From Hyphomicrobiales bacterium (GTDB lineage Bacteria > Pseudomonadota > Alphaproteobacteria > Rhizobiales > Beijerinckiaceae), in contig PLRT01000055.1 of NCBI GenBank assembly GCA_003164915.1, positions 1-33,164 on the forward strand: DNA of 33,164 bases, given 5' to 3'. The position numbers and the translations under genes were made by a program. Below are positions 3,805-25,141 of the stretch, one piece after another (positions within the stretch are counted from its first letter, which is position 1; each line of letters begins with the position of its first letter). The notes beneath the pieces were generated by a model. It saw nothing but the letters and a program-made list of their open reading frames with translations. It searched no databases and was not told where the DNA came from.

Positions 3805-4926
3805 ATGAGCAACGTAACGCTGCAGCAGCGCATGAAATGGTTCGCGTCCGTGGCCGCCACGGCGCTCGCGGTCTGCGCCGCGCCCGCTCTCGCCGCTCCG
3901 CCCGACGACCTCGTCGCCGCCGCCAAGAAGGAAGGCCAGCTCACCGTCATCGCGCTGCCGCGCGACTGGTGCGGCTACGGCGCGCTGATCGACAGCTTCA
4001 AGGCCAAGTACGGCCTCGCCGTCAACGAACTCAACCCCGACGGCGGCTCGGGCGACGAAGTCGAGGCGATCAAGGCCAACAAGGACAACAAGGGCCCGCA
4101 GGCCCCCGACGTGATCGACGTCGGCCTCAGCTTCGGCCCGTCCGCCAAGAAGGACGGTCTCCTGCTTCCCTACAAAGTTTCCACCTGGGACTCGATCCCG
4201 GATTCGGCCAAGGACGCCGACGGTTACTGGGTCGGCGACTATTACGGCGTGCTGTCGTTCGCGGTGAACGCCGACATCGTCAAGACCGTCCCGACCGATT
4301 GGCCCGACCTGCTGAAGCCGGAGTACAAGGCCTCCGTCGCGCTCGCCGGCGACCCGCGCACCTCCAACCAGGCGACGATGGGCGTCTACGCCGCCGGCCT
4401 GTCGACGGGCGAGACCGACGCCGCCAAGGCCGCCGCCAAGGGCCTCGACTTCTTCGCCGACCTCAACAAGAAGGGCAACTTCGTCCCGGCGATCGGCAAG
4501 GCCGCCTCGCTCGCCCAGGGCTCGACTCCGATCCTCGTCTTCTGGGACTACAACGCGCTCGCCGCGCGCGACGCCCTGAAGGGCAACCCCAAGGTCGACG
4601 TCGTCGTGCCGAAGACCGGCGTCATCGCCGGCGTCTACGTCCAGGCGATCAGCGCCTATGCGCCCCATCCCAACGCCGCCAAGCTGTGGCTCGAGCACCT
4701 CTATTCGGACGAAGGGCAGCTCGGCTGGCTGAAAGGCTACTGCCACCCGATCCGGTTCAACAATCTGGTGGAAAACAAGAAGGTGCCGGCCGAGTTGCTC
4801 GACGCGCTGCCGCCGGCCGATAGCTACGCCAAGGCCAAGTTCCCGACCCTCGAGGAACAGGCGGCGGCGAAGGACGTCATCGCCAAGCAGTGGGACACGG
4901 TCGTCGGCGCCACCGTCGCCAAGTGA
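3805..4926 (+). CDS. ABC transporter periplasmic substrate-binding protein
   Basis: Extracellular solute-binding protein of the family that includes spermidine/putrescine and iron(III) receptors. It would capture a ligand in the periplasm and deliver it to the permease pair encoded just downstream. The start is ATG at 3805 because GAGGGGGA lies just before it and a Sec signal peptide follows (hydrophobic ATALAVCAAPALA, cut near residue 30). The track start at 3634 would add 57 residues ahead of the signal. The protein is 373 residues. The mature part keeps two cysteines, in DWCGYG near the N-terminus and GYCHP near the C-terminus, which could form a disulfide. The ligand cannot be read from the sequence. 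It is the first gene of a four-gene set with two permeases and an ATPase. Confidence 0.9.
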   Translation: MSNVTLQQRMKWFASVAATALAVCAAPALAAPPDDLVAAAKKEGQLTVIALPRDWCGYGALIDSFKAKYGLAVNELNPDGGSGDEVEAIKANKDNKGPQAPDVIDVGLSFGPSAKKDGLLLPYKVSTWDSIPDSAKDADGYWVGDYYGVLSFAVNADIVKTVPTDWPDLLKPEYKASVALAGDPRTSNQATMGVYAAGLSTGETDAAKAAAKGLDFFADLNKKGNFVPAIGKAASLAQGSTPILVFWDYNALAARDALKGNPKVDVVVPKTGVIAGVYVQAISAYAPHPNAAKLWLEHLYSDEGQLGWLKGYCHPIRFNNLVENKKVPAELLDALPPADSYAKAKFPTLEEQAAAKDVIAKQWDTVVGATVAK

Positions 4927-4950
4927 CGCCCGCACGCGTGATCAGCCCAC

Positions 4951-4978
4951 GCCCCGCCTCCGTCATTGGCGGCGGGGC
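4951..4978 (+). terminator. GC stem-loop between binding protein and permease genes
   Basis: GCCCCGCC and GGCGGGGC can pair around a 12-base loop, 24 bases after the binding-protein stop. No T-tract follows. In ABC operons such hairpins often stabilise the upstream mRNA or partly end transcription so that more binding protein than permease is made. That role is inference. Confidence 0.45.
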
Positions 4979-5026
4979 TGACGTCGCTGTGGCCCCCGGC
5001 GTGCGCGGCGCGGTCGCGTTGCGCGC

Positions 5027-5908
5027 ATGACGACGGTCGCGACTCCCGCGACGGGCGTTCTGCGCTTGCCCAATCTGGCAGCGTGGCTCGGCGTCGCGCC
5101 GTTCTTCCTCTTTGCCGTCATGTTCCTGATCCTGCCGACCGGTTCGCTGCTGGTCGGCGCGTTCCAGGACCATGACGGCGCATTCACCTTGTCGAATCTC
5201 GGCCGGCTGTGGCAGCCCTCGATCCGACTTTCCTACCTGCTCAGCATCGAGATCAGCCTCGCCTCCGCCTTTCTCGGCGCGCTGATCGGCCTCGCGCTGG
5301 CGATCGCGGCGCTGCGCGGCGGCCTGCCAGGCTGGGTGCGGCCGACGCTGATGACCTTCAGCGGCGTCGCCTCGAATTTCGCCGGCGTGCCGCTCGCCTT
5401 CGCCTTCATGGCGACGCTCGGCCGCCTCGGCTTCATCACCATCCTCCTCAGGAGCGTCGGGCTCGACATCTACGCCGCCGGCTTCAACCTCTTCACCTTC
5501 ACCGGTCTTACCGTCACATACCTGTATTTCCAGATTCCACTGATGGTCCTTGTGATTGCGCCGGCGATCGACGGAGTCAAGGCGGAGTGGGGTGAGGCGG
5601 CGGAAATCCTCGGCGCCGGACGGCTGCAGTACTGGCGCATGATCGTCGCGCCGATCCTGTGGCCGAGCGTGCTCGGCGCTTCGCTGCTTCTGTTCGCCAA
5701 CGCCTTCGGCGCCATCGCCACCGCCTACGCGCTGACCGGTTCGTTCCTCAACATCGTGCCAATCCTGCTCTACGCGCAGATCCGCGGCGACGTGCTGCAC
5801 GACCCCAACCTCGGCTACGCGCTCGCCCTCGGCATGCTGCTGATCACCGGCCTGTCGAACGTGGCCTATCTCTACCTGCGAGCGCGCTCAGACCGGTGGC
5901 TCAAATGA
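5027..5908 (+). CDS. ABC transporter permease, PotB-like
   Basis: Inner-membrane permease of 293 residues in the binding-protein-dependent (BPD_transp_1) family. It has about six hydrophobic segments. The cytoplasmic EAA loop that docks the ATPase is seen as EWGEAAEILGAG followed by VAPILWPSVLGA. It pairs with the next permease to form the channel. It lies 100 bases after the binding-protein gene, beyond a GC hairpin, and its TGA overlaps the next ATG (ATGA), so the two permeases are probably translationally coupled. Similarity in style is to PotB/AfuB-type permeases; the transported compound is unknown. Confidence 0.9.
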   Translation: MTTVATPATGVLRLPNLAAWLGVAPFFLFAVMFLILPTGSLLVGAFQDHDGAFTLSNLGRLWQPSIRLSYLLSIEISLASAFLGALIGLALAIAALRGGLPGWVRPTLMTFSGVASNFAGVPLAFAFMATLGRLGFITILLRSVGLDIYAAGFNLFTFTGLTVTYLYFQIPLMVLVIAPAIDGVKAEWGEAAEILGAGRLQYWRMIVAPILWPSVLGASLLLFANAFGAIATAYALTGSFLNIVPILLYAQIRGDVLHDPNLGYALALGMLLITGLSNVAYLYLRARSDRWLK

Positions 5909-6693
5909 AGAGCGGCAAGCTCGGCGCCTGGCTGGCGATGTTCCTCGGCGTCGCTTATTTCCTGGCGCCGCTGATCGCCACTTTCGAATTCTCACTGCGC
6001 ATGCGGCGCGGCGAATACAGCTTCGACGCCTATCGCGTCGTGCTGGCGAGCGCCGATTTCCACGATTCCTTTCTTTACTCCACTGTGCTCGGACTGCTGA
6101 CCATCGTCGTCGGCATCCTCATCGTCGTGCCGACCGCCTACTGGGTCCAGCTCCGCCTGCCGAAGCTGCGCGGCCTGGTCGAGTTCATCACCCTGCTGCC
6201 GCTGGTGATCCCGGCGATCGTGCTGGTGTTCGGCTATGTCAGGCTCTATGGCAGCTCGTCGATCCTGCCCTTGACGGCGACCTCGCTCGGCGCCGACGCG
6301 CTGCTGATGTTCGGCTATGTCGGCCTCGGCCTGCCCTACATGTACCGCTCGGTCGAGACCGCGCTGCGCTCGATCGACGTGCGCACCCTGACCGAAGCCG
6401 CCGAAAGCCAGGGCGCCGGGATCTGGACCATCCTCGTCCACATCATCCTGCCCAACATCCGCTCCGGCATCCTGTCGGGGGCGTTTCTCACCTTCGCCAT
6501 CGTCATCGGCGAGTTCACCTTCGCCAGCCTGCTCGATCGGCCGGCTTTCGGCCCCTATCTCCAACTCATCGGCGCCAACCGCGCCTACGAGCCGTCGGCG
6601 CTGGCGATCATCGCCTTCGCGTTGACCTGGGCTTGCATGGGCTTGATCCAGCTCGTCGGCTCGGGCATTCGCATTCCTGTCGGCAAGCGTTAG
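5905..6693 (+). CDS. ABC transporter permease, PotC-like
   Basis: Second inner-membrane permease of the importer, 262 residues. The track begins it at 5659, but the ATG at 5905 overlaps the previous stop as ATGA and starts right before the first membrane helix (GAWLAMFLGVAYFLAPLIA), so I use that. Six hydrophobic segments are visible. The EAA loop reads LTEAAESQGAGIWTILV followed by ILPNIRSGI. The ATPase gene starts 11 bases after its stop, which fits one operon. Confidence 0.9.
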   Translation: MKSGKLGAWLAMFLGVAYFLAPLIATFEFSLRMRRGEYSFDAYRVVLASADFHDSFLYSTVLGLLTIVVGILIVVPTAYWVQLRLPKLRGLVEFITLLPLVIPAIVLVFGYVRLYGSSSILPLTATSLGADALLMFGYVGLGLPYMYRSVETALRSIDVRTLTEAAESQGAGIWTILVHIILPNIRSGILSGAFLTFAIVIGEFTFASLLDRPAFGPYLQLIGANRAYEPSALAIIAFALTWACMGLIQLVGSGIRIPVGKR

Positions 6694-6704
6694 GATAGTC
6701 GCCC

Positions 6705-7769
6705 ATGTCGTTCCTCACCCTGACCGGCGTTCGCAAGGCCTTCGGCGCAAATACGGTCGTGCGCGACTTCAATCTCTCGGTCGAGCGCGGCGAATTCGTC
6801 ACCTTCCTCGGCCCGAGCGGCTGCGGCAAGACGACGACCTTGCGCATCGTCGCCGGCTTCGAGGCGCCCAGCGCCGGCGAGATTCGCATCAGCGGCCAGG
6901 ACGTCACCCATCTGCGCGCCAACAAGCGCGCAATCGGCATGGTGTTCCAGTCCTACGCGCTGTTCCCCAACATGACGGTGGCCGCCAACATCGGCTTCGG
7001 CCTCAAGGTCGCGCGCAAGTCGCCGGCCGACATCAAGTCGCGGGTCGACGAGATGCTGGCGCTGATCAAGCTGCCGCAGCTCGCCGGACGCTACCCCTAT
7101 CAGTTGTCGGGCGGCCAGCAGCAGCGCGTCTCGCTCGCCCGCGCGCTGGCGCCGAGTCCGCAGATCCTGCTGCTCGACGAGCCGCTCTCCGCCCTCGACG
7201 CGCGCATCCGCGTCTCGCTGCGCGAGGAAATCCGCTCGCTGCAGCGCAGTCTCGGCATCACCACGATCTTCGTCACCCACGACCAGGAGGAAGCCCTGTC
7301 GATGTCGGACCGCGTCGTCGTGATGAACGAAGGCGCGATCGAACAGGTCGGTTCGCCGAGCGAGATCTACAATGCGCCGCGCACTCGCTTCGTCGCCTCG
7401 TTCGTCGGCACGCTCAATCTGCTCAACGGCAAGATCGTCGACGCGTCGGTCGGGGCGATCGACATCGACGGCCAGCGCGCGACGACGCGGCGCAAGCTCA
7501 ACGGCGCCAAACCCGGCGACATCCTGCCGTTGGCGTTGAGGCCTGAGGCCCTGCGGCTCGGCGAAGGCGGCGACGATCGCAACACGCTCGCCGGCGTCAT
7601 CGAGGACGTCGCCTTCCTCGGCGCGGTCGTCCGGGTGCGGGTGCGACTGCAGGAAGCCGCGGTCATCATCGACATGTTCAACACCGGCGGCCCTGACCTG
7701 CCGGCGCGCGGCGCGCCGATCACGGTCAACTTCAGTCGCGACGACCTGATCCCGCTGCAAGCGCACTAG
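6705..7769 (+). CDS. ABC transporter ATP-binding protein (PotA/FbpC-like)
   Basis: Cytoplasmic ATPase of 354 residues that powers the importer. Walker A is GPSGCGKT (residues 36-43), the Q-loop is FQSYALFP, the signature is LSGGQ (134-138), Walker B is ILLLDEP (154-160) and the switch histidine is in THDQEEAL (192). A C-terminal TOBE-type region follows from about residue 240, as in PotA, FbpC and CysA-like proteins. The catalytic residues all look intact. It closes the four-gene transporter set and is convergent with the glutamate-synthase-like gene, with only 14 bases between the stops and no clear terminator. Confidence 0.93.
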   Translation: MSFLTLTGVRKAFGANTVVRDFNLSVERGEFVTFLGPSGCGKTTTLRIVAGFEAPSAGEIRISGQDVTHLRANKRAIGMVFQSYALFPNMTVAANIGFGLKVARKSPADIKSRVDEMLALIKLPQLAGRYPYQLSGGQQQRVSLARALAPSPQILLLDEPLSALDARIRVSLREEIRSLQRSLGITTIFVTHDQEEALSMSDRVVVMNEGAIEQVGSPSEIYNAPRTRFVASFVGTLNLLNGKIVDASVGAIDIDGQRATTRRKLNGAKPGDILPLALRPEALRLGEGGDDRNTLAGVIEDVAFLGAVVRVRVRLQEAAVIIDMFNTGGPDLPARGAPITVNFSRDDLIPLQAH

Positions 7770-17638: not shown

Positions 17639-18859
17639 CTAGCGCGCCAGCGCGGCGCGATAGACCGCGAGCGTCTTTTCCGTCATCTGCTCGAGCGAGA
17701 AGTTCGCCTCGACATGGGCGCGCGCGCGCACGGCGATCGCGTCGCGCGCAGTTGCGCCGAGCGTCAGCGCGCTGGCCAACGCATCGGCGAGCGCCGGCGC
17801 GTCGCCTGGAGGAACGCGCCAGCCGGTGCGTTCCTGCGGCGACGTCTGCGGCGGCGCCAACACGGTCTCCGGCGCGGCGCCGGAATCCGACACCACCACC
17901 ATCGCGCCCAGCGCCTGGGCCTCGACTGCGCTGCGGCCGAAGGCTTCCGGCTGGGTCGACGGCACGGCGACGACGCTCGCGGCGATCAGCGCCGCCGGCA
18001 TGTCGTGGCAATGGCCGACGCGCGCGACCACGTCCTCGAGTCCGGAGCGGCGGATGCGCGCGTCGAGATCGCGCGCATAGGAATCGCGCCCCTGCGCGTC
18101 GCCCGCAAGCACGAAGCGCACGTCGGCATATCCGCGCTCCTTGAGCAGTTTCGCCGCCTCGATCAGCACCCGCTGCCCCTTCCACTCGGTCAGCCGCGCC
18201 GCCAGCAGCACGATGCGCTCGTGCGGCGCGGCGCCCCAGGCTTCGCGCAACTGGGTCACCCGCCCGCGCTCGACCGAATTGGGCGCGAAGCGCGCGAGAT
18301 CGGTCCCGCGCGGAATGACCGCGAGCCGGCCGCGCGCAAATGGATAGAGCCGTTCGATCGCGTCGGCGGTGAACTGCGAGTTGGCGATGACGAAATCGCC
18401 GCGCGCCATCACCGAATTGTACCTGAGCTTCAAGGCCGAGCGCCCGCCGTAGGCGCCATGAAAGGTGGTGACGAACGGCCGCCCGACGCGGCGGCAGGCG
18501 CCGAGCGCAACCCACGCCGGCGCGCGCGAGCGCGCGTGGACGAGGTCGACCCCCTCCTCGATGATCAGCCGCGCCAGTCGCGGCGCGTTGAGCGCCATCG
18601 AAACCGGATTCTTGGTCGCGGCGGGGAACGGCGCCAGCACGCCGCCGACCGCCTGCAATTCGGCCGCCAGCCGGCCGCCTTCCGACGCGACCAGAGCGCG
18701 CGCGCCGGCCTGCACCAGGGCGGCGGCGACGTCGATCGTCGTGCGCTCGGCGCCGCCGGCGTCGAGCCGCGGAATGATCTGCAGAATCGTGCGTCCGGCG
18801 AGGGCGCCGCTCTCGGCGCGGCCGAAGGGCGCGAGCGTGGCGGCGCTCACGCGCCCCAC
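17639..18859 (-). CDS. Glycosyltransferase family 4
   Basis: GT-B fold glycosyltransferase of 406 residues. The N-terminal domain has the donor/acceptor groove start IIPRLDAGGAERTT, and VHARSRAPAW and TTFHGAYGG. The C-terminal domain has ARLTEWKGQ and the nucleotide-sugar E-x7-E motif EAFGRSAVE. It most likely transfers a sugar to a cell-surface glycan or lipid; donor and acceptor are unknown. The GTG at 18859 is the track start, but a second GTG at 18850 has a better G-rich site ahead of it (GGTGGGG) and may be the real one. It is alone, with no other glycan genes next to it. Confidence 0.9.
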   Translation of the reverse strand: MGRVSAATLAPFGRAESGALAGRTILQIIPRLDAGGAERTTIDVAAALVQAGARALVASEGGRLAAELQAVGGVLAPFPAATKNPVSMALNAPRLARLIIEEGVDLVHARSRAPAWVALGACRRVGRPFVTTFHGAYGGRSALKLRYNSVMARGDFVIANSQFTADAIERLYPFARGRLAVIPRGTDLARFAPNSVERGRVTQLREAWGAAPHERIVLLAARLTEWKGQRVLIEAAKLLKERGYADVRFVLAGDAQGRDSYARDLDARIRRSGLEDVVARVGHCHDMPAALIAASVVAVPSTQPEAFGRSAVEAQALGAMVVVSDSGAAPETVLAPPQTSPQERTGWRVPPGDAPALADALASALTLGATARDAIAVRARAHVEANFSLEQMTEKTLAVYRAALAR

Positions 18860-20571: not shown

Positions 20572-21135
20572 TCAGCGCAATCGGACGTCGGGTCGCGGGG
20601 CCGGCTTGAGCTGGGTCGGCAGGCCGGCGGCGACGGCGACGACCGCGCCGCAGGCGGCCGCCGCCGCCTGGTTGAGCCGCCCCTGCCAGTCGCGAAAGGC
20701 GCGGCCGAGCGGAGTCGCCGGCACGACCCCCGCCCCGACCTCGTTGGAAATCAGGATCGCCGGACCGTCGAGTTCGGATAGAACCTTCGTCAATTCCGAT
20801 ATTTGCGCCTCGATGTTAAGGTCCGCTTGCATCAGGTTGGCAAGCCACAGAGTCAGGCAGTCGACGAGAGTCGCTCGCCCCGGCCGGGCTTCCGCCCGCA
20901 GCGCCGAAGCGAGCGCCAGCGGCTCCTCGCGGGTCCGCCAGCCCGTGCCGCGCTCGCCGCGGTGGCGGGCGATGCGTTCTGCCATTTCAGCGTCGCCGGC
21001 CTCGGCGGTGGCGAGGTAGAGTCTTTCGGCGGCTGTCGCTTCGGCGAGCGCCAGCGCGTAGCGGCTCTTGCCCGAGCGCACGCCGCCGATCACCAGGACG
21101 GAGCGGCAGAAGACGGATTCGAGCGAACTGCCCAT
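20572..21135 (-). CDS. cobU: Adenosylcobinamide kinase / adenosylcobinamide-phosphate guanylyltransferase
   Basis: Bifunctional enzyme of cobalamin lower-ligand assembly (CobU, called CobP in many alphaproteobacteria). It phosphorylates adenosylcobinamide and then adds GMP. The P-loop is GGVRSGKS (17-24). The histidine expected to carry GMP is His58 in RIARHRGERG, and later LVDCLTLWLANL and LISNEVGAGVVP are typical. Length (187) is normal. It stands apart from other cobalamin genes here; I saw no B12-riboswitch sequence in the 111 bases upstream. Confidence 0.94.
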   Translation of the reverse strand: MGSSLESVFCRSVLVIGGVRSGKSRYALALAEATAAERLYLATAEAGDAEMAERIARHRGERGTGWRTREEPLALASALRAEARPGRATLVDCLTLWLANLMQADLNIEAQISELTKVLSELDGPAILISNEVGAGVVPATPLGRAFRDWQGRLNQAAAAACGAVVAVAAGLPTQLKPAPRPDVRLR

Positions 21136-21246: not shown

Positions 21247-21807
21247 GTGTCCGTTTCTCTCGACCAGACTCTGCGCGATTGGCGCGATTTCTACGCCATG
21301 GGCGGCGCCGCGGCGGCGACGCTGGTCGGCCTGATGTTCGTCTTCGCCTCGATCGGCGCGAGCCAGCTCGCCGCCCGCAATCTCGGGGCGATGCGCGCTT
21401 TCATCACGCCAACGGTTGTCCACTTCGCATCGGCGCTGTTCGTCTGCCTGGTGTCAGTCATGCCGGGGCACAGCGCGCGCAGCCTCGGCGGCGTGCTCGG
21501 CGTCGGCGCACTGATCGGCGTCGCGTACTGCGGCCAGATCCTCGTCTTCATCTTTCGCCGCTTCGCCGCCGGCCTGGCGTGGGAGGACCGGCTCTTCTAT
21601 GCGTTGATCCCCCTCGTCGGCTATGTCCTGCTGCTCGCCTCGGCGGCGATCGAACTCGAGGGGCGCCCCGACGACGCCAATATCCTCGCCGGGATTGCAA
21701 TCATCGCGCTGATCGTCGCCGGACTTCGCAACGCCTGGGACATGACGGTGTGGATGACGACGCGCGGCGCAGCCGACAGCCCGTCCGCGCCCGCCGAGGG
21801 CGGCTAG
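21247..21807 (+). CDS. Small integral membrane protein of unknown function
   Basis: I do not recognise a function. The 186-residue protein has four to five hydrophobic segments, the first in AAAATLVGLMFVFASIGAS after a short soluble start (LDQTLRDWRDFYAMGG). Similar small proteins are common as hypotheticals in Rhizobiales. The start is GTG at 21247. It is divergent from cobU and 72 bases before the aminotransferase gene, so it may or may not belong to that operon. The C-terminus is Pro/Ala/Glu-rich and soluble. Confidence 0.7.
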   Translation: MSVSLDQTLRDWRDFYAMGGAAAATLVGLMFVFASIGASQLAARNLGAMRAFITPTVVHFASALFVCLVSVMPGHSARSLGGVLGVGALIGVAYCGQILVFIFRRFAAGLAWEDRLFYALIPLVGYVLLLASAAIELEGRPDDANILAGIAIIALIVAGLRNAWDMTVWMTTRGAADSPSAPAEGG

Positions 21808-21879: not shown

Positions 21880-23037
21880 ATGAACTCCCTCTTCGCCGGT
21901 CTCGGCGTCAGCGTCTTCGAGGTCATGTCGCGGCTGGCGCGCGAGCGCGACGCGGTCAACCTCGGCCAGGGATTTCCCGACGATCCCGGCCCCGCCGATG
22001 TGCGCGCCAAGGCGGCGGAGGCGGTGATCGACGGCTGGAACCAATACCCGCCGATGCTCGGCCTACCTGAGCTGCGCGCCGCCGTCGCCGCCCATTACAA
22101 GCGTTTCCAGGGGCTCGAACTCGATCCCGAACGCGAGGTCATGGTGACCTCGGGCGCGACCGAGGCGATCGCCGGCGCGCTAATGGCGCTGATCGAGCCG
22201 GGCGACGAGGTCGTGCTCTTCCAGCCGATGTACGACGCCTATCTGCCGCTGGTGCGACGCGCCGGCGGCGTGGCGAAATTCGTCACGCTGAAGCCGCCGC
22301 GCTGGACCTTCGACGCGGCCGACCTCGCCGCCGCCTTTTCCGACCGCACGCGCGTCGTCCTGTTCAACAATCCGCTCAACCCGACCGGGGTCGTCTACGG
22401 CCGCCAGTCGCTCGAGATCCTGGCGCGCGCTTGCGTCAAATACGACGTCATCGCGCTCTGCGACGAAGTCTGGGAGCACGTGGTGTTCGACGGCCTCGAC
22501 CATCAGCCGCTGATGGCGATGGCGGGCATGCGCGAGCGCACGGTCAAGATCGGCTCGGCCGGCAAGATCTTTTCGCTGACCGGCTGGAAGGTCGGCTTCG
22601 TCATGGCCGCGCCGGAGATTTTGCGCATTCTCGCCAAGGCGCACCAGTTCATCACCTTCACCACCCCGCCCAACCTGCAGAGCGCCGTCGCCTACGGCCT
22701 CGGCAAGGACGATTCCTATTTCGCGGCCATGCGCCAGGGGTTCCAGCGCAGCCGCGACCGCTTCGCCGCTGGCCTCCGGGAGCGCGGCTTCTCGGTGCTG
22801 CCGAGCGCGGGCACCTATTTCCTCAACGTCGACCTCGCGCCGCTCGGCTGCGACGACGACGTCGCCTTCTGCCGCGAGCTGGTCGAGCGCCATGGCGTCG
22901 CAGCGATTCCGGTCTCGGCCTTCTATGCCGAAACGCCGATCCGCACCGTCGCGCGCTTCTGCTTCGCCAAGCGCGACACGACGCTCGACGCGGCGCTGAT
23001 GCGGCTCCAAGGGGTCGCCAGCGAGGCGCGCGTATGA
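21880..23037 (+). CDS. PLP-dependent class I/II aminotransferase
   Basis: Fold-type I aminotransferase of 385 residues. The PLP lysine is Lys229 in GSAGKIFSLTGWK; NPLNPTG (164-170), CDEVWEH (Asp195) and the N-terminal NLGQGFPD are also seen. This pattern matches the kynurenine/methionine aminotransferase group (YbdL, glutamine transaminase K-like), so aromatic or sulfur amino acids are possible substrates. I start at 21880 because homologs usually begin a few residues before LFAGL; the 21829 start adds 17 residues. Its TGA overlaps the next gene's ATG. Confidence 0.92.
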   Translation: MNSLFAGLGVSVFEVMSRLARERDAVNLGQGFPDDPGPADVRAKAAEAVIDGWNQYPPMLGLPELRAAVAAHYKRFQGLELDPEREVMVTSGATEAIAGALMALIEPGDEVVLFQPMYDAYLPLVRRAGGVAKFVTLKPPRWTFDAADLAAAFSDRTRVVLFNNPLNPTGVVYGRQSLEILARACVKYDVIALCDEVWEHVVFDGLDHQPLMAMAGMRERTVKIGSAGKIFSLTGWKVGFVMAAPEILRILAKAHQFITFTTPPNLQSAVAYGLGKDDSYFAAMRQGFQRSRDRFAAGLRERGFSVLPSAGTYFLNVDLAPLGCDDDVAFCRELVERHGVAAIPVSAFYAETPIRTVARFCFAKRDTTLDAALMRLQGVASEARV

Positions 23038-24203
23038 CGCTGGCTCGCGTCGCGCTCGCGCTCGCGGTTGCCGGATTGTGCGCGTCGGCGACCCTGGCCG
23101 CTGAGACGTCTCCCTTCGCGCCGCCGCCCGCACAGGCGCCGAAGATCGTCCGTCTGCTCGCGCCTCCCGCCGTGATGGACGTCGACGCGCTGCAGGGATT
23201 CGAGGCTGAAAGCGGCTATCAAGTCGCCTACGACGCCTACGAGGGCGCGGCCGACCTCGCCGAGAAATGGCGCGACGGCCCCTACGACCTCGTCGTCCTT
23301 TCCGGCCCGGCCTTGGCGCGCGAGATCGCCGCCGGCGCGTTGGCGCGGCTCGACCACGCGCGTCTGCCCAACGTCGACAAAGTCCGGCCGGCAGCGCTCG
23401 CCAAGCTCGCCGCCTACGACCCGACCGCCGCAGACTGCGCGGCGCCGCTCGGCTGGTACGCAACCGGTCTGCTGTATGACGCCGACAAGGCGGCGCAGCG
23501 GATCGCCGGCGCGCCGACCTCGTGGAACGCCCTCTTCAATCCGATCGAAGCGAGCAAAATGGCGGACTGCGGCGTCGTGCTGCCCGACGACCGCGATGCT
23601 CTGTTCGCCGCCGCCTGGCGATTGCTCGGCGTCGATCCAACGCGCGCGACCGCCGTGCAGGTCAAGAGCGCCGCCGCTCTGATCGGCCGCAGCCGCAAGA
23701 CGGCGCGCGCCTTCCCCGCCGCCGACGTCGTCAGCGCGCTGGCGAGCGGCGCCGCCTGCCTCAGCGTCGGCGACGCCGGCGAGGCCGAAGCCGCCAAGTC
23801 GCGCAGCCGGGAGGGCGGCGCCGGCGCCGACATCCGTTTCGCCCTGCCGAAGGAAGGCGGCGGACTGGCGATCGAGGTCTACGCCATGCCCCGCGACGCG
23901 CTGCACAGCGACGTCGCCTACCTGTTGCTCGATTACCTGCTGCGCCCCGAGATCGCGAGCCGCAACGCCGCGGCGGCGCGGCTGATCGACGCCGAAGCCG
24001 CCGACCAGGACGAAACGCTCAAGCGGCTATCGCCGCAAGGAGCCTACGATGCTCGGGTCGCGCCTTTGGTGCAGACCGAATGGGAGAGTCTCGTCACCAG
24101 CAAGGCCGAAGCGCCGAAGCCGTCGCAATCGGGCGGACGAACGCCGCCGGCGCGGGTAAAAGCCCAGAGACCGAATCCGAAGAAACCCAAGAAGCCGCAA
24201 TGA
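23034..24203 (+). CDS. Orphan periplasmic solute-binding protein (PotF/PotD-like)
   Basis: Secreted protein of 389 residues that looks like a polyamine-type solute-binding protein. It begins with a Sec signal (VALALAVAGLCASATLA, cut near residue 22), then RLLAPPAVMDVDALQGFE and YDAYEGAADLAEKW, like the first lobe of such receptors. The track start at 22431 lies inside the aminotransferase; ATG 23034 overlaps that gene's stop. No ABC permease or ATPase is next to it. The last 40 or so residues are Lys/Pro-rich (KAQRPNPKKPKKPQ), an unusual tail. It is coupled on both sides, so it may bind a compound handled by the aminotransferase or the EamA exporter. Function is unproven. Confidence 0.82.
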   Translation: MTLARVALALAVAGLCASATLAAETSPFAPPPAQAPKIVRLLAPPAVMDVDALQGFEAESGYQVAYDAYEGAADLAEKWRDGPYDLVVLSGPALAREIAAGALARLDHARLPNVDKVRPAALAKLAAYDPTAADCAAPLGWYATGLLYDADKAAQRIAGAPTSWNALFNPIEASKMADCGVVLPDDRDALFAAAWRLLGVDPTRATAVQVKSAAALIGRSRKTARAFPAADVVSALASGAACLSVGDAGEAEAAKSRSREGGAGADIRFALPKEGGGLAIEVYAMPRDALHSDVAYLLLDYLLRPEIASRNAAAARLIDAEAADQDETLKRLSPQGAYDARVAPLVQTEWESLVTSKAEAPKPSQSGGRTPPARVKAQRPNPKKPKKPQ

Positions 24204-25141
24204 ACCGTGGCGCGCAGCGCCCGATGACGACGACCGAATGGGGTCTGCTGCTGCTGTTGTCGCTGCTCTGGGGCGGCTCATTCTTCTTCGTCGGAATCGC
24301 CGTCAAGGCATTGCCGCCATTTACGATTGTCGCTGCGAGAGTGACGATCGCGGCGGCGCTTCTGTGGCTCGCCGCGCCATTGACGGGGGTTTCCGCCCTG
24401 CGGCTCGGCCGCCAGGCGCCGGCGCTGCTGGCGCTCGCGCTGCTCAACAACGTCGCGCCGTTCTCGCTGCTGACCTGGAGCCAGACCCAACTCGCCAGCG
24501 GCCTCGTTTCAATCCTCAACGCGACGACTCCCGTGTTCACTGTCGTCATCGCCCATTTGTTCACCGTGGAGGAAAAGCTCGACCAGCGCCGCCTCGCCGG
24601 CGCGCTGATCGGTGTCGTTGGCGTCGCGGCGATGATCGGGCCTGAGCTGTTGGGCGGCTTCGCCGGCCATCTCGTCGCCGAGCTTGCCGCGCTGCTGGCC
24701 GCTACGTCTTACGCCGCCGCGAGCGTGTTCGCGCGGCGCTTCCGCCGGCTCGGTCTGGCGCCGATTGAGCTGGCGACCGGCCAGGTCACGGCGTCGGCTC
24801 TCGTGCTTCTGCCGCTCGCGCTCGCCGTCGACATGCCCTGGCGGCTGCCCGCGCCCGGCCCCGCGGCGATTGCGGCGATCGGCGCGATCGGCGCGCTGTC
24901 GACGGCTCTCGCGTATGTCGTGTTCTTCCGCATCCTCGCCGGCGCCGGCGCGGTCAATGTTGTGCTGGTGACCCTGCTCGCGCCGGCGACCGCGATCCTG
25001 CTCGGCGCCGCGGCGCTCGGCGAGCGGCTCGCGGCCCGCGACTTCTTCGGCCTGGCGACCATCGCGCTCGGCCTCGCCGTCATCGACGGCCGCCTGCCGC
25101 GCGAGGCGCGGGCGCGCTTCGCGGCGGCGTTCGACCGTTAA
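24200..25141 (+). CDS. EamA family (DMT superfamily) transporter
   Basis: Inner-membrane protein of 313 residues with about ten hydrophobic helices in two EamA repeats. The first repeat opens with LLLLSLLWGGSFFFVGIAV, the usual start of this family. ATG at 24200 overlaps the binding-protein stop (ATGA); the track start at 23522 is wrong. EamA proteins often export amino acids or metabolites, so with an aminotransferase in the operon an amino-acid-related substrate is plausible, but this is inference. Confidence 0.92.
   Translation: MNRGAQRPMTTTEWGLLLLLSLLWGGSFFFVGIAVKALPPFTIVAARVTIAAALLWLAAPLTGVSALRLGRQAPALLALALLNNVAPFSLLTWSQTQLASGLVSILNATTPVFTVVIAHLFTVEEKLDQRRLAGALIGVVGVAAMIGPELLGGFAGHLVAELAALLAATSYAAASVFARRFRRLGLAPIELATGQVTASALVLLPLALAVDMPWRLPAPGPAAIAAIGAIGALSTALAYVVFFRILAGAGAVNVVLVTLLAPATAILLGAAALGERLAARDFFGLATIALGLAVIDGRLPREARARFAAAFDR

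Follow-up and report, generated by a model that had tools for sequence, protein, structure and literature searches.

A PotF-type binding protein encoded behind an aminotransferase gene in Beijerinckiaceae, probably stranded from a split polyamine importer

Introduction

The closest described counterparts of the solute-binding protein analysed here are PotF, the binding component of the PotFGHI putrescine importer, and the SpuD-type binders. Binding proteins can share permeases. Polyamine-type binders that work without being importers also exist; one is NspS of the NspS-MbaA system of Vibrio cholerae, described also in Sinorhizobium meliloti, in which MbaA is the receptor partner (PMC9993111). 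The neighbouring gene products belong to described families as well. Aminotransferases of the PRK08912 family are relatives of Rv0858c, YbdL and the kynurenine/glutamine transaminases and have kin of mixed substrate specificities, and the EamA/DMT exporters include YedA and YddG.

Here we describe a locus in a 33,164-nt stretch of DNA (hereafter the window; contig PLRT01000055.1 of assembly GCA_003164915.1) from a Hyphomicrobiales bacterium of the family Beijerinckiaceae, in which genes for all three protein types follow one another. A narrow literature search returned no description of an aminotransferase-binding protein pair or of an orphan PotF encoded with an aminotransferase.

Results

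The three genes lie on the forward strand and encode a class I/II aminotransferase (AT; 21880..23037, with the start at MNS as in orthologues), a PotF-type solute-binding protein (SBP; 23034..24203) and an EamA transporter (24200..25141). A preliminary description had singled them out as unrelated protein types joined by ATGA junctions, and both overlaps were confirmed, at 23034-23037 for AT/SBP and at 24200-24203 for SBP/EamA. Pfam and NCBIfam likewise confirmed the domain types (Aminotran_1_2 and PRK08912, SBP_bac_6, and EamA, respectively). On the 5′ side of the AT gene, a cobU-type gene on the reverse strand (20572..21135), regarded as context only, is also close to AT or SBP in several relatives and was not found at the AT-SBP locus of genome G118, the nearest relative of the window's species in the sample. 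Between cobU and AT lies a 186-aa ORF (21247-21807) with no Pfam or NCBIfam match; among the genus loci read, it is present only in the window and in G118. Rfam at gathering thresholds gave no match between positions 18000 and 28500.

The AT reaches 661.5 bits against PRK08912, above the curated cut-off of 498, and comparison with the aminotransferases of that family and its relatives revealed nothing unusual. Its nearest solved structures are Rv0858c and YbdL. The AT is present in many genomes without an adjoining SBP gene, which means that it has a job of its own.

One set of 149 family genomes was searched for each of SBP, AT and EamA. Of the 80 genomes in which both AT and SBP occur, 41, spread over 16 genera, have the two adjoining with AT in front; gaps of up to 3 kb counted as adjacency, most being below 250 nt and six measuring 420-1960 nt. 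A second family of the order (f36) has the same pair in seven genomes, as judged by coordinates; four of these were read as loci. Moreover, the coupling of the two genes exceeds chance: in 10 of 35 AT-linked loci, belonging to different genera, SBP has an in-frame start that shares 4 or 1 nt with the AT stop. Judged from sequence, AT and SBP are an old conserved pair, older than the EamA neighbourhood. A contig scan with the window SBP returned a single match, a distant Spirochaetaceae locus, which was not used.

The EamA product carries two EamA stretches and thus has the domains of the EamA/DMT exporters, but its matches to the named exporters (TIGR00950 and YedA) are weak and fall below the cut-offs, and in relatives its gene is not linked to AT-SBP. 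That is, among the six genus genomes searched, EamA adjoins SBP only in the window's own genome (G000) and in G118, and it lies one gene away in G027; in other genera the best EamA match is located elsewhere in the genome. SBP and EamA are about 85 nt apart in G118; within the sample, the SBP/EamA overlap is confined to the window's species. In G027 the separating gene encodes a sulfatase with a choline-sulfatase C-terminal domain, and a sulfatase gene likewise follows SBP in G150, where the contig ends. In G095, which has no SBP match, the sulfatase gene precedes EamA, and both remain together with the 86-aa ORF and the porin, GST and thioredoxin-reductase-like genes. This distribution of EamA led us to reject the trio as a unit: the three genes are apart in most relatives. 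Of the single shared task proposed in the preliminary description, the part that stands is the association of AT with SBP; EamA does not belong to it. EamA probably came to lie beside SBP by local rearrangement, and it needs no place in the explanation of the locus.

Sulfatase genes were located at L033:9156-10679, L087:8076-9392 and L145:5432-6946, with the choline-sulfatase C-terminal domain found in the two that were scanned (L033 and L145); no such gene is present at the window and G118 loci. Any connection between the SBP and choline compounds would be speculation.

The SBP is homologous to solved polyamine binders over the binding-protein fold, with similarity along its whole length (best E 5.5e-45). 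Its matches to PotF and PotD fall far below their cut-offs, with 144.6 bits against the 636 set for the NCBIfam PotF equivalog NF007962. While its relatives keep the polyamine pocket and have PotGHI, the window SBP has the equivalents of W37, W244 and E185 replaced, carries an extra basic tail and is encoded behind an aminotransferase gene in a genus in which PotGHI was not found.

Among the loci read, 19 are whole potFGHI operons and the remaining SBPs stand alone; potGHI adjoins SBP in none of the 35 AT-linked loci. A PotH query taken from a potFGHI operon was then run against genomes with AT-linked SBPs, and a strong match (about 290-380 bits) was found elsewhere in the genome in 31 of the 41 tested AT-SBP genomes of the family and in all four tested from f36. 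Thirty further loci were fetched, of which 24 hold a strong potHI set. There is no potF beside it in 22 (L127 and L131 among them stop at a contig end, and for these the locus alone does not decide), and the other two, L133 and L142, are whole potFGHI operons. SBP and PotH also occur together: among tested genomes in which AT was matched and SBP was not, 0 of 16 have a strong PotH, a count that leaves out G153, which was not searched for SBP. The simplest reading is that of a split importer, with potF behind AT and potGHI at a distance, in which case the SBP would not be a natural orphan; in most relatives its likely partner would be precisely the kind of distant ABC system that the preliminary description had named as incompatible with its proposal. 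In G064 the AT-linked SBP seems to be broken into two frames (L065:6889-7988), and a whole potFGHI operon (L142) is found elsewhere in that genome.

In the window's genus no such partner was seen. The AT-SBP pair is present in G000, G118, G066, G027 and G150, in all of which PotH and PotI matches are only weak (at most 150 and 165 bits, respectively), and G000 has no clear PotGHI (best PotH E 4.8e-28, best PotI E 1.5e-17); the window's genome is 88% complete and the other four 91-98%, and the absence of PotGHI rests on all five together and on the similarity thresholds. The SBP gene has no ABC gene next to it. The closest such set, comprising a binding protein, two permeases and an ATPase, lies at 3.8-7.8 kb (3808..7769, forward strand) and was rejected as a partner of the SBP on account of having its own binding protein. 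The lack of ABC partners noted in the preliminary description is thus confirmed beside the gene and extends, within the genus, to none visible genome-wide. In G000 three PotH/PotI-like ABC sets were found, each with its own SBP, and no SBP-less set was seen. Contigs 44 and 50 of that genome (L149 and L150) carry two more sets of the same class than the one in the window, each with an SBP-like ORF, their neighbours having been judged by eye.

The polyamine pocket was scored at ten PotF positions (W37, S38, D39, Y40, S85, E185, W244, D247, D278 and Y314), the allowed residues being taken from operon PotFs. Y40 and Y314 are included as positions that we take to contact the ligand. The others come from PotF structures, and W37 is conserved in 100% of 250 homologues (PMC8666671). 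The window SBP keeps one of the ten positions, in an alignment that includes very divergent rows and is least sure around W37-Y40; Glu aligns with both D247 and D278. One position is also kept by the G118 SBP, and three to five by those of the other three genus members. The AT-linked SBP of G028 is an example with a full pocket. Of the stand-alone SBPs scored (n = 53), all 38 that come from genomes with strong PotH reach 9-10 of 10, whereas the 15 without it score 1-10 with a median of 6 (Mann-Whitney p 5e-11, without correction for kinship). The contrast recurs within genera: in g11, the SBP of G109, with PotH, scores 10/10, and those of G010 and G051, without PotH, 6/10 and 7/10, and in g40 G126 differs in the same way from G103 and G144. 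One exception is G070, whose SBP keeps all ten positions although the PotH match in that genome is weak (164 bits). Five stand-alone SBPs of g22 and g40 that are neither AT-linked nor accompanied by strong PotH (L037, L039, L043, L045 and L089) show milder changes (7-9/10).

In a tree of SBPs, where long branches leave the placements of L058 and L070 uncertain, the five genus sequences cluster together (SH-aLRT 100), with the g11 pair placed inside the canonical AT-linked SBPs; the pocket has thus drifted more than once. On this evidence the window SBP would have lost polyamine binding, although a changed pocket could still bind amines.

The SBP nevertheless continues to look like a gene. Its frame is open and intact in all five genus members, and all five N-termini resemble signal peptides by eye, that of the window (MTLARVALALAVAGLCASATLA, probable; 23034..23099) included, so the protein is probably exported to the periplasm. 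Between the window and G118 (NG86), dN and dS are 0.24 and 0.78 for SBP, 0.13 and 0.64 for AT, and 0.20 and 0.67 for EamA, which gives a dN/dS of ~0.3 for SBP against ~0.2 for AT, rough values given the high dS. When a frame of SBP length was evolved in a simple neutral simulation, fewer than 1% of the runs were still without stops once changes reached 0.39 per site or more. Taken as sequence signals, these values mean that the SBP is under moderate purifying selection, and a pseudogene was rejected on frame integrity. The Lys/Pro-rich tail seen in the preliminary description is real: it extends ~30 residues (24105..24200) past the canonical PotF end, WxxVKTGK. Comparable but dissimilar tails are found in G027, G150 and G066, and none in G118.

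Discussion

We think it probable that the window SBP is a PotF that was stranded by the loss of its transporter and is still made together with AT. It would descend from a split polyamine importer of the PotFGHI type, as its PotF part, with potF behind an AT gene that had its own job and potGHI at another place in the genome. In the window's genus the potGHI partner would have been lost and is no longer detectable. The SBP gene would have stayed where it was, with the translational overlap with AT preserved, while its product lost most of the polyamine pocket; in most genus members the product carries a basic, Pro-rich tail, and the gene is kept intact under moderate purifying selection. The SBP would no longer feed polyamine to PotGHI and may now have a transporter-free binding role or be undergoing slow loss. 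The purifying selection argues for a role, and the fast change without a common new pocket for decay.

Two other readings would give the SBP a working partner at the locus or elsewhere. According to the preliminary description, the AT makes an amino-acid product that EamA exports and that the SBP holds or senses outside. The two ATGA overlaps in the window's species are what speaks for this, and no positive evidence for such sensing or holding was obtained; with EamA apart from the pair in nearly all relatives and kept with other genes in G095, with the SBP/EamA overlap not common to G118, and with an AT-SBP pair that predates the EamA association, we find this scheme hardly credible. It is also very unlikely, if less so, that the SBP serves another ABC permease of the same genome. 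Binding proteins can share permeases and further ABC sets of the same class are present, but the three PotH/PotI-like sets of this genome already carry their own SBPs.

If the SBP is indeed a stranded PotF, its present state could be read in two ways. It may be a slow relic without current function, surviving through translation with AT and through some mild or recent usefulness, a possibility that we regard as somewhat doubtful. The fast change, the pocket loss and the variable low-complexity tail are consistent with it, as are the loss of the SBP in 16 of the 16 tested genomes that have AT and lack both strong PotH and SBP, and the broken AT-linked copy in G064; a dN/dS of ~0.3, the lack of stops at a divergence where neutral frames would break, and the retention of the SBP in at least four genera without PotGHI argue against it. 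Alternatively, the SBP may have been repurposed after the loss of PotGHI, taking a new ligand and acting as a transporter-free periplasmic buffer or sensor tied to AT metabolism. The intact frames in five genus members under purifying selection, the AT overlap kept after pocket loss in several genera, and the precedent of NspS (PMC9993111) all favour such a change of role. NspS, however, has its MbaA receptor, and no c-di-GMP receptor partner of this kind was noticed beside the window SBP among the ORFs listed for the genus loci; the pockets also differ among genus members. On balance we hold repurposing to be unlikely, and the broader version, in which several lineages independently turned a stranded PotF into a transporter-free periplasmic binder made with AT, with a new ligand linked to AT metabolism, to be slightly more so.

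The stranded-PotF reading accounts for an apparently orphan SBP, which would be half of an importer whose genes are split. It also carries a warning, in that neighbours or a family name alone are insufficient to call a solute-binding gene an orphan or its product a polyamine binder. The lineages with and without potGHI would provide a natural test of the fate of a binding protein once its transporter has gone.
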